Of a DNA stretch of 40,824 nt, positions 3,634-5,797 are shown piece after piece. The notes under the pieces were generated by a model. That model was not told the DNA's origin. It saw only the letters and a list, made by a program, of their open reading frames with translations, and searched no databases. Both the position numbers and the translations under genes were made by a program. Position 1 is the first letter of the stretch, and the number at the start of each line of letters is the position of its first letter. Source of the DNA: Phycisphaerae bacterium (GTDB taxonomy: Bacteria; Planctomycetota; Phycisphaerae; Sedimentisphaerales; Anaerobacaceae); contig JAGOLX010000055.1 in assembly GCA_017993835.1 (NCBI GenBank), positions 1 through 40,824 on the forward strand. The letters are read 5' to 3'.

Positions 3634-3687
3634 GATCGGGACCCATAGGACCGATTGGACGGATAGGACGGATGGGACTAATGGGAC
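3634..3687 (+). repeat. 9-bp degenerate tandem array, six units
   Basis: Six contiguous 9-mers: GATCGGGAC, CCATAGGAC, CGATTGGAC, GGATAGGAC, GGATGGGAC and TAATGGGAC. The array reaches into the 3' end of the four-helix-bundle gene and supplies its TAG stop on the minus strand. Confidence 0.85.
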
Positions 3688-4322
3688 TCATTCGATCCTC
3701 GGTTTCGCGGGGGCGGGCTGCTGGATTGCGAGCGGCGGTGCTGCGAGCGGGCTCGGTAGAGACGCTCGGTGAAGCCGCCTTCCTTGAGGAACTGGCGCTC
3801 CAGGGATTCGAGCTGGCGGTCGAGAAGATAGTTGGCCTGATGGATTACGCAGAGCAGGGTGTTCGCCGCGACCTCCGGCGGGGACTCCTCGACATATGAC
3901 TGATAGGACGAATAGGACCTATCGGACTTATAGGCGAGGTTCCGGATTACTTGTGCCTGCGGATGCTCCTTTGGCCAGATCGGCAGGCGGCGCTGGCGGA
4001 GAAAGTCCTCGTAGTCTTCGAGCAGTTCCTGGAGGCTGCCGCGAGCGACGCCGGTGAGTTTGAACTCGGTCTTCTTGGACGTGCCGGAATCTTGGCTGGC
4101 CTCCGCGATGTTCTGCTTGCCGCTGCGAGCGGCTTGCACCATCTGGTCGAAAGTGCGGGAGCGCGGATTGATGAAGCGGGCACAGAAAGCGTTTGTTGCG
4201 TCGAAGATGATCTCTGCGGCTTGGTAGGACTTCAGGTTGCGGTAGCCGCCGTGAGGAGGAATGATCCGATGCTCATGGTTCCCATCGGTCCCATCCGTCT
4301 TGTTCTTCCCATTCCGCTCCAT
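3678..4322 (-). CDS. Four-helix-bundle suffix-domain protein (S23-like), repeat-invaded
   Basis: About 214 residues from the ATG at 4322. A TTG at 4358, overlapping the mtaB stop as TTGA, is an alternative start giving 226. The core from IIPPHGGYRNLKSYQ through AARSGKQNIAEASQDSGTS and LTGVARGSLQELLEDYEDF is typical of the four-helix-bundle family related to the 23S rRNA intervening-sequence protein, with its suffix form. The family has no known enzymatic activity. Two stretches look foreign: KTDGTDG near the N-terminus and SDRSYSSYQSY in the middle. Both are translations of the 9-bp repeat arrays at 4275-4313 and 3892-3936. The C-terminal RGSNESH also ends inside an array. The frame is kept through all of them. 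Confidence 0.75.
   Translation of the reverse strand: MERNGKNKTDGTDGNHEHRIIPPHGGYRNLKSYQAAEIIFDATNAFCARFINPRSRTFDQMVQAARSGKQNIAEASQDSGTSKKTEFKLTGVARGSLQELLEDYEDFLRQRRLPIWPKEHPQAQVIRNLAYKSDRSYSSYQSYVEESPPEVAANTLLCVIHQANYLLDRQLESLERQFLKEGGFTERLYRARSQHRRSQSSSPPPRNRGSNESH
3892..3936 (+). repeat. 9-bp array inside the four-helix-bundle gene
   Basis: ACATATGAC, TGATAGGAC, GAATAGGAC, CTATCGGAC and TTATAGGCG in tandem. It is translated on the minus strand as a Ser/Tyr-rich insert without breaking the frame. Confidence 0.8.
4275..4313 (-). repeat. 9-bp array near the 5' end of the four-helix-bundle gene
   Basis: Minus-oriented copies of the same 9-mer (plus strand shows GGTTCCCAT, CGGTCCCAT, CCGTCTTGT, TCTTCCCAT). 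It encodes the KTDGTDG segment ahead of the conserved start of the domain. Confidence 0.7.
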
Positions 4323-4354
4323 GAGTGCGATGATAGCGTCACAGTCCGGAAGAA

Positions 4355-5797
4355 TCAAACGATTGTTCCGAGAATCGCGTCGCGGCCGTTCTGGTCGAGT
4401 CGGACGGCGACGATCTCGCCAGGCGAATAGGACGGATGGGACGGATAGGACTCATGAGACTGGTCCTCGCGTGGGCGTGTCCTATCCGTCCCATTGGTCC
4501 CATCCGTCTTATGTTGTCCTATCCGGACCTCGAAATAGCGTTCCGCCCGGCCGGCGGGGGAGCCGTCGACATTCTCCTCGATCAGGACCTGGGCGGTCTG
4601 GCCGAGGAACTGTGCCCGGAAGCGGGTCTGAAGCTCCCGGTTGAGGTCGCGGAGGGTCTTCGAGCGGGCCTTGATGACCGCCGGAGGGACTCGCGGCCGC
4701 ATTTTGGCTGCTGCCGTGCCTTTTCGCGGCGAGAAGGCGAAGACGTGCATCTTGGCGAAGCCGACTTCCCGGGCGAGGGCGACCGTTTCCTCGAACTCCG
4801 CATCCGTCTCACCTGGGAAGCCGACGATAATATCGGTCGTTATCGCAGGCCGGTCCAAGCGGTCCTTGACGAGTGCGACCCTCTCGCGGAACTCGTCGGC
4901 GCTGTAGGGTCGGGCCATCCTGTGAAGGACCGCGTTTGAACCCGATTGAAGCGATAAGTGCAGGTGTGGCATCATGTTAGGATGGGCACAGAACACGTCG
5001 AGCAGTCGCGGCGTAACGTCCGCCGGGTCAAGCGAACTGACGCGGATGCGGACCAGACCGGGGACCTGAGCGACTTGGTCCAGCAGGTCGGCCAAGTGCG
5101 GGTTCTCTTCGGTGGTCCACCGGCGACGTCGGACTGTGGTCTGGCCGTAAGCGCCGATGTGGACGCCGGTTATGACGATTTCCTTGTGTCCTGCGGCCAC
5201 GAGAGCCCTTGCTTCCGTGAGGATTTCCCCGGGATTCCTGAATCGAACAACCGGGCGGACCGTCGGTATAATGCAATAGAGGCACGGACCATCACAACCG
5301 TCCTGGATCTTGAGAAATGCACGAGTTTGGCCATGAAACGATGCGAGAGCCGGCAAATCCCGGCATAGATGTAAGTCGTTTTTGGACTTGACTTTGGCAC
5401 CGTTTTCTGGTCTAATGAGGGTGGCTGAAGGGTGATTCGAATCTGGGGTGGTTGATTCGGTGCGAGCCAGGCGGCTCAGGGTGGCCGGGAGTTCGCATCG
5501 GTCCTTGACAACATGGATGTTCTCCCCGACGACAGTGAGTTCGTCTGTCGGAGCGGCGGGCAGGCAGCCGCAAAGTACGATGGCTTGCGGGTTCTGTTTC
5601 CCGGCCTGGTGGAGCAGGTGGCGGCTCTTGGCCGAGGCGGTGTGAGTGACACAGCAGCTATTGACCACGACGAGTTCGGGCGAGTCCGCGAGGTCCACCC
5701 GACGCAGTCCGCAGCCTTCGAGAAGCTGGCGAATCTGCTGGCTTTCGTACTGATTCACTTTGCAGCCAAGTGTTAAGATGGCAAAGCTGGTCATCAT
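4355..5797 (-). CDS. mtaB: tRNA t6A37 methylthiotransferase MtaB-type (radical SAM)
   Basis: 480 residues. The UPF0004 domain carries cysteines at C12 (LGCKVNQYES), C48/49 and C76/78. The radical SAM triad CDGPCLYC lies at C168, C172 and C175, and a C-terminal TRAM domain follows. GVHIGAYG and the LHLSLQSGS region fit the MtaB branch, which converts t6A37 to ms2t6A37 in ANN-decoding tRNAs, rather than MiaB or RimO. The start is a double ATG at 5797. The TRAM domain is interrupted at about residues 430-457 by a hydrophilic insert (KTDGTNGTDRT to SHPSY) encoded by a 9-bp repeat array at 4424-4527; homologous TRAM sequence resumes at PGEIVAVRL. Without it the length would be a normal 450 or so. 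The cysteines are intact, so catalysis should be preserved. Its first bases face the pilM gene across a 79-bp divergent gap. Confidence 0.92.
   Translation of the reverse strand: MMTSFAILTLGCKVNQYESQQIRQLLEGCGLRRVDLADSPELVVVNSCCVTHTASAKSRHLLHQAGKQNPQAIVLCGCLPAAPTDELTVVGENIHVVKDRCELPATLSRLARTESTTPDSNHPSATLIRPENGAKVKSKNDLHLCRDLPALASFHGQTRAFLKIQDGCDGPCLYCIIPTVRPVVRFRNPGEILTEARALVAAGHKEIVITGVHIGAYGQTTVRRRRWTTEENPHLADLLDQVAQVPGLVRIRVSSLDPADVTPRLLDVFCAHPNMMPHLHLSLQSGSNAVLHRMARPYSADEFRERVALVKDRLDRPAITTDIIVGFPGETDAEFEETVALAREVGFAKMHVFAFSPRKGTAAAKMRPRVPPAVIKARSKTLRDLNRELQTRFRAQFLGQTAQVLIEENVDGSPAGRAERYFEVRIGQHKTDGTNGTDRTRPREDQSHESYPSHPSYSPGEIVAVRLDQNGRDAILGTIV
4424..4527. repeat. Inverted pair of 9-bp arrays inside mtaB
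   Basis: The left half reads GGACGGATG, GGACGGATA, GGACTCATG. The right half reads GTGTCCTATCCGTCCCATTG and then GTCCCATCCGTC, so the two halves can fold into a long imperfect hairpin. The whole block stays open on the minus strand and is translated within the TRAM domain. Confidence 0.85.

Follow-up and report, generated by a model that had tools for sequence, protein, structure and literature searches.

Arrays of 9-bp repeats within mtaB of a Phycisphaerae bacterium, and a dispersed repeat family associated with TIGR04258 four-helix-bundle proteins

The closest described parallel to the repeats studied here is the REP/RAYT system, in which dispersed, mostly extragenic palindromes accompany a gene that lies in cis and is flanked by inverted copies of the repeat. 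The type of repeat matches the clade of the gene, and the abundance of repeats in a genome follows its cognate gene (PMC2817692, PMC8266576). Palindromic repeats are also found in frame within unrelated protein genes, as is the case for the Rickettsia palindromic elements, or RPEs (PMC10969869). On the protein side, homology has been reported between the family PF05635 and Avd, an accessory protein of DGRs that is essential to their retrohoming (PMC10053308), and an IVP-type protein (23S rRNA IVP) is listed beside CRISPR adaptation modules (PMC10910872).

In this paper we analyse a stretch of 40,824 nt (G000:C48:1-40824), which we call the window, from a 6.37 Mb assembly, the source genome G000. 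Within it, an inverted pair of 9-bp arrays is read in frame as part of mtaB, beside a gene for a TIGR04258 protein. Like a RAYT gene, the TIGR04258 gene is flanked by inverted repeats of a dispersed type, and the type of 9-mer follows the TIGR04258 clade and the genome content, with exceptions in three genomes (G567, G571 and G545). Unlike a RAYT gene, however, it encodes no HUH Y1 (IS200/IS605-like) transposase but an S23/Avd-type four-helix bundle; in place of single palindromes of 20-40 bp there are tandem arrays of a 9-bp unit with free spacer bases; and the protein gene contains one of the arrays. The in-frame insertions in mtaB, murF and a DNA ligase gene resemble RPEs, but RPEs are elements of about 150 bp in one genus, whereas the mtaB pair of 9-mer arrays is about 96 bp long and its family lies mostly at gene ends in G000, reaches about 20 phyla and is tied to a protein family. 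TIGR04258 proteins share fold and family with Avd and the 23S rRNA intervening-sequence proteins (PF05635, TIGR02436), from which they differ by an extra suffix helix, by the 9-bp arrays and by having no reverse transcriptase that recurs among the neighbours within 1.5 kb. Several of their genes lie between effector genes and cas4-cas1, as in the CRISPR adaptation modules with a 23S rRNA IVP; yet the units here are of 9 bp and have no spacers, and most TIGR04258 loci have no nearby cas genes. In the open-licence literature we found no paper on 9-bp arrays paired with TIGR04258 proteins, and none on ‘four helix bundle suffix’. The pairing of repeat and protein could be new, with a logic analogous to that of REPtrons; a reader who weighs logic over parts could call it a variant instead.

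The array pair in mtaB and the adjacent gene

The features of the locus are as follows.

4355..5797, minus strand: mtaB, a tRNA methylthiotransferase of 480 aa with an insert at residues 430-457 (TIGR01579; gap in orthologues)
4427..4462, plus strand: array of four 9-mers ATRGGACNN, one arm of the inverted pair in mtaB
4479..4522, minus strand: inverted array GTCCYATNN of 4-5 units with one 10-bp junction, the other arm in mtaB
3678..4358, minus strand: P0002, gene of a four-helix-bundle-suffix protein (TIGR04258/TIGR02436), the putative cognate gene of the arrays
4272..4300, minus strand: array near the P0002 N-terminus, coding for KTDGTDG
3903..3931, minus strand: array internal to P0002, coding for the loop SDRSYSSYQSY just before the suffix domain
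3732..3878, minus strand: TIGR04258 suffix domain of P0002, the fourth helix of the bundle
3638..3692, minus strand: array at and after the P0002 stop codon
3273..3314, minus strand: further degenerate array, downstream

The original prediction placed a block of 9-bp repeats at 4424-4527, and the block is there exactly as described: the 9-mer ATRGGACNN forms two arrays that are inverted with respect to each other. The unit consists of a 7-bp core, ATRGGAC, and two free bases. From position 4427 the plus arm reads ATAGGACGG ATGGGACGG ATAGGACTC ATGAGACTG, the fourth unit having one mismatch, and the inverted arm (4479-4522) reads GTCCTATCC GTCCCATTG GTCCCATCC GTCTTATGTT GTCCTAT. A strict two-unit pattern matches six times in the window and not once in any of 100 shuffles; across the 6.37 Mb of G000 it matches 31 times, while the reversed control pattern has zero matches. 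As RNA, the array segment folds into a long hairpin of -50.6 kcal/mol (z = -5.9), and as DNA its fold has z = -4.1; Rfam has no match at gathering score in the window. In the spacer bases of facing units, complementarity in the hairpin register is not above that of a parallel control, so that the arms are not simply exact copies of one another. Such spacers are more easily reconciled with recognition of the core than with the copying of perfect hairpins, a reading of the base pattern that would hold under mobilisation and regulation alike. Elsewhere in the window, at 503-1044, there is a degenerate tandem repeat with a 120-bp unit, about 70-74% alike, within an open reading frame on the minus strand (328-1779).

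The protein P0001 is assigned to MtaB by NCBIfam TIGR01579 (364.7 bits). Its reading frame stays open through both arms, which are read, as had been claimed, as residues 430-457 (KTDGTNGTDRTRPREDQSHESYPSHPSY), and the two arms code for different peptides. The insertion had been placed in the TRAM domain; a full-length, sub-threshold TRAM match over this region in a family homologue (13.6 bits) lends this placement weak support, although P0001 itself has no Pfam TRAM match. From the RYF motif to the conserved strand that follows, the G000 protein has 40 aa and the outgroups (sister genera and other family members) have 16-21 aa, which amounts to a net gain of about 20-24 aa. The block is absent from five sister-genus MtaBs and from other family homologues, as expected of an in-frame insertion of repeat DNA, and no homologue without the DNA repeat has the protein segment. 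Relatives do carry different numbers of units: among the congeners, G001 has a full, comparable inverted pair made of different units (RYF segment 39 aa), G008 has three units (23 aa), and G003, G005 and G002 have remnants (23, 17 and 17 aa, respectively). Given this pattern and the sister-genus MtaBs that lack the block, the mtaB insertion looks, from the sequences compared, like an event at the level of the genus that was followed by turnover. In the MtaB of a further congener, G007 (L042), the same C-terminal loop holds a 39-aa segment from an unrelated in-frame repeat, GTAGGGTGGGTTCTCAACC...GGGTAAGACCCCACCC.

It had also been proposed that a 9-bp unit can invade a gene without frameshift. 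The unit is indeed three codons long, but this is insufficient alone, since the lengths of spacer and junctions must also total a multiple of three; moreover, some reading frames of the array contain stops (ATAGGAC includes TAG). A single frame is common to all the in-frame cases seen, giving [R/G]-T-x and S-[Y/H]-x. Two of these cases, in other phyla, extend the suggestion that the repeats offer a possible route to new protein segments. In a Nitrospira MurF (TIGR01143, 416 bits across the insert), an inverted array is read as IYRTYRTYRSYKSYKSYKSYS in the middle domain. In an ATP-dependent DNA ligase from Amesbacteria, TYRTNRTHRTY separates the N-terminal domain from the catalytic one, and NRTNMTNRTN follows later in the sequence. 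Both are read in the same frame as in MtaB. Taken with MtaB, these predicted proteins indicate that repeats of this family enter housekeeping enzymes. Coding insertions would persist in surface loops, provided that they add a multiple of three bases in all and bring no stop codon into the frame, and the C-terminal loop of MtaB may be one such tolerated site.

The P0002 gene lies immediately downstream of mtaB. Its suffix domain scores 85.1 bits against TIGR04258 (curated cut-off 40), and the protein scores 26 bits against the S23/IVP family TIGR02436 (cut-off 24); the match to Pfam PF05635 is below cut-off. The AlphaFold model of P0002 is a four-helix bundle (pLDDT 84.5) in which the array-coded loop connects helices three and four. 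Its best fold matches in the PDB are the S23/IVP structures 2gsc (Z 15.2, rmsd 1.9, 114 residues) and 2rld (Z 13.5); Foldseek alone gave no significant E-value for this model. P0002 matched no transposase family, and no catalytic domain was recognised in it. The S/T-Y-x pattern of the loop before the suffix domain is kept even in TIGR04258 genes without clear arrays.

A topoisomerase-type zinc ribbon was found by Pfam at the C-terminus of two TIGR04258 proteins, one of the GATC clade (L204) and a second protein of G000 (L262), and its motif is also visible in the other GATC-clade sequences that were read to the end. Judging from this motif, the ribbon points to nucleic-acid binding. Proteins with such a C-terminus are L204, L241, L247, L248, L257, L260 and L262, of which L204 and L262 are those tested by Pfam.

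Arrays and TIGR04258 proteins across genomes

Most arrays of G000 are found outside genes, in intergenic DNA or immediately behind a stop codon; their sites include the region behind miaB and that between selA and selB (gene names from translations). Between trpB and trpA (L026, 1440-1560), the TAG stop codon of TrpB lies within an array unit, cacATAGGTCC, so that it is an array that fixes where this biosynthetic enzyme ends. At the junction G000 carries an array of four units; G001, G004 and G005 keep one or two, and the other five congeners lack them altogether. Two congeners, G002 and G008 (L295, L297), have a different palindromic repeat at this junction, GCATGGGCGTCCCGCCCATGAG... Arrays occur in all nine genomes of the source genus and in few genomes outside it (19 of 148 relatives; 14 of 392 genomes of the phylum); the control pattern has almost no matches in the relatives. 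Arrays of three exact units, often as inverted pairs, were found in at least 117 stretches from named genomes of about 20 phyla, a figure to be read with the caution that the DNA pattern is not specific by itself, some matches being collagen-like G-P-M coding repeats (L163). Among the array loci compared, we saw no clean empty site with a target duplication.

Spread by viruses was considered and set aside. Many IMG/VR contigs match the array pattern, but the matches are repeated at multiples of 9 bp, which means that these contigs (L305-L384 and further ones) probably carry collagen-like Gly-Pro-Met/Ile coding repeats. Proteins related to the TIGR04258 protein are encoded on none of the viral contigs. 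In phage records the array pattern had zero matches; one Prevotella replicon matched.

Genomes with arrays tend to be those with TIGR04258 proteins. Across the 392 genomes of the phylum, TIGR04258 is found in 10 of the 14 array genomes as against 20 of the other 378 (5%; P = 1.2e-9); in the 148 relatives, which are partly the same genomes, the corresponding figures are 11 of 19 and 11 of 129 (P = 2.2e-6). The species are related, so these counts are not independent trials and the P values are optimistic. When array-bearing genomes were taken from many phyla, a TIGR04258 gene was present in 40 out of 50; 49 of the 50 array loci have none in the surrounding DNA examined (up to 8 kb). With one nearby gene in 50 loci, the association is thus one in trans. 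Both parts occur in the named strains Rhodopirellula sp. SM50 and Chlorobium ferrooxidans DSM 13031, which are not labelled as MAGs. Arrays without a detected TIGR04258 gene were found in 4 of the 14 phylum genomes, in G006 and in several g51 genomes. We also rejected adjacency of array and P0002 homologue as a general rule: only 3 of the 117 array stretches have a homologue in the surrounding DNA examined. The link is therefore one at the level of the genome, together with the arrays around the TIGR04258 gene itself.

For these latter arrays, we oriented and compared 80 TIGR04258 loci, with MtaB loci as a control. Period-9 arrays occur at 6.7 per 10 kb (64 of the 80 loci) as against 0.44 in the control loci, a difference of about 15-fold; at the TIGR04258 loci, other unit lengths reach at most 0.8 per 10 kb, apart from 18, which is twice 9. 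With the suffix domain as reference, the arrays peak at -600 to -400, -100 to 0 and +100 to +400; these three places lie upstream, immediately ahead of the suffix domain and shortly past the end of the gene. The position of the mtaB pair corresponds to the usual one of the upstream pair at other TIGR04258 loci; it is thus probably the upstream pair of the P0002 locus, captured in the reading frame of mtaB. Ordinary C-terminal codons of mtaB, however, lie between the arrays and P0002, so that the pair could also be a separate insertion and not the element's own flank.

Other TIGR04258 genes have other 9-mers at the same places, such as GATCNGNCN, GTCNGACNN, NTGGACNNN, AAGG(G)ACNN and ATGGGAANN, and more. 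In a search of 20 genomes, GTCNGACNN arrays were present in 6 and GATCNGNCN arrays in 8, with none in the rest, including G000; predicted matching paralogues were then found in G398, G463 and G524. No matching paralogue was found for the GATC arrays of G567 and G571 or the GTCNGAC arrays of G545, for which incomplete MAGs, gene loss or spread by another protein may account. Dispersed arrays are mostly of types that match the genome's own TIGR04258 proteins. We built a tree of 56 TIGR04258 proteins from which the array-coded columns had been removed, and called unit types by motif counts. GTCNGAC (11 proteins), NTGGAC (8), GATC (7) and AAGG(G)AC (3) each form one well-supported clade, and the tree requires 9 changes of unit type, where the minimum is 8 and the shuffled mean 31.1. 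A first tree that kept the array-coded columns gave the same picture. Since the clades cross families and phyla, unit and protein stay together through divergence or transfer.

A conserved neighbour was sought as a missing enzyme, and none recurs, except that in some planctomycetes the TIGR04258 gene adjoins CRISPR-Cas genes; within 1.5 kb of the TIGR04258 genes no reverse transcriptase is recurrent. TIGR04258 genes lie within CRISPR-Cas loci in L186, L187, L191, L192, L193, L194, L200, L205 and L230; in L187, for example, which is type I-C like, the gene has cas7 on one side and cas4-cas1 on the other, and in L205 cas12a takes the place of cas7. Several of the CRISPR-Cas loci have degenerate T-Y-x (9-bp) repeats in the start region of cas4.

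Proposed recognition and mobilisation, and competing explanations

The analysis itself establishes three fixed places in cis, an association in trans, a match between unit and clade, turnover between close species and in-frame reading in three enzymes. The original prediction was right about the in-frame repeat insertion but missed that it is not an isolated invasion, belonging instead to a dispersed, protein-linked repeat family. On balance we favour the view that the mtaB block is one copy of a family of dispersed, hairpin-forming 9-bp arrays tied to a cis-linked TIGR04258 protein that recognises and spreads them. The protein would bind its cognate array, as hairpin DNA or RNA, and with additional catalytic help new copies of the arrays would arise, or be inserted, at other places, chiefly the ends of genes, in the way proposed for REPs and RAYT transposases. 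Several observations count against this view: the protein shows no recognisable catalytic domain, clean empty sites with a target duplication were not seen, some array genomes have no detected TIGR04258 gene or no matching paralogue, and the arms are not simply exact copies. We advance more tentatively, as somewhat less likely than not, that this is a new class of mobile repeat, in which a four-helix bundle with no known transposase domain recognises 9-bp hairpins and drives their spread, possibly with a Cas1-like integrase or a polymerase/reverse transcriptase; protein and unit would have co-evolved in about 20 phyla, and some copies would have become new loops of enzymes.

The main rival to mobilisation is regulation. 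The arrays could be scattered sites, such as operators, mRNA hairpins or terminator-like elements, to which a regulatory four-helix bundle binds on RNA or DNA, and they would have spread by ordinary mutation, recombination and selection. Their usual position in G000, right after stop codons or between genes, agrees with this, as do the strong hairpins, the zinc ribbon of some clades and the S23/Avd-type fold of the protein, given the part that Avd plays in retrohoming (PMC10053308); co-evolution of unit and protein clade fits recognition alone. However, the coding loops of MtaB, MurF and the ligase are poor regulatory sites, the trpB-trpA arrays are gained and lost rapidly between species, unit types are common to about 20 phyla, and we noticed no shared gene function at the array sites. 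We therefore consider regulation unlikely, at perhaps one chance among several.

Selection on the protein is far less credible as an account: here a functional coding repeat, either collagen-like or an S-Y-x loop, would be what is maintained and the DNA repeat a by-product. The collagen-like matches noted above (L163, and probably many of the viral contigs) are of this kind, and the S/T-Y-x pattern persists before the suffix domain where arrays are unclear; but most arrays of G000 are at gene ends or intergenic and occur in both orientations, and the mtaB arms encode different peptides that are lost in relatives. Least plausible of all, to the point that we give it hardly any weight, is plain slippage of tandem repeats, or chance low complexity in a GC-rich genome, with no partner protein. 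Unit numbers do vary and 9-bp units are compatible with codons, yet the 7-bp core stays conserved and the two free positions do not, the opposite of homogenisation by slippage. The inverted pairs and the near absence of control matches (zero in G000, almost none in relatives) speak against slippage too, and the fixed positions and protein-clade specificity seen in the cis, trans and tree comparisons contradict it.

If the association of arrays and TIGR04258 proteins is causal, it would provide a function, in the recognition or mobilisation of repeats, for a widespread family for which we found no described role, and likewise for some members of the S23/Avd fold family. A further consequence would be to reveal a dispersed-repeat system that follows a REP-like logic with an unrelated protein in about 20 phyla, and to offer a traceable path from non-coding repeats to new loops of housekeeping enzymes.
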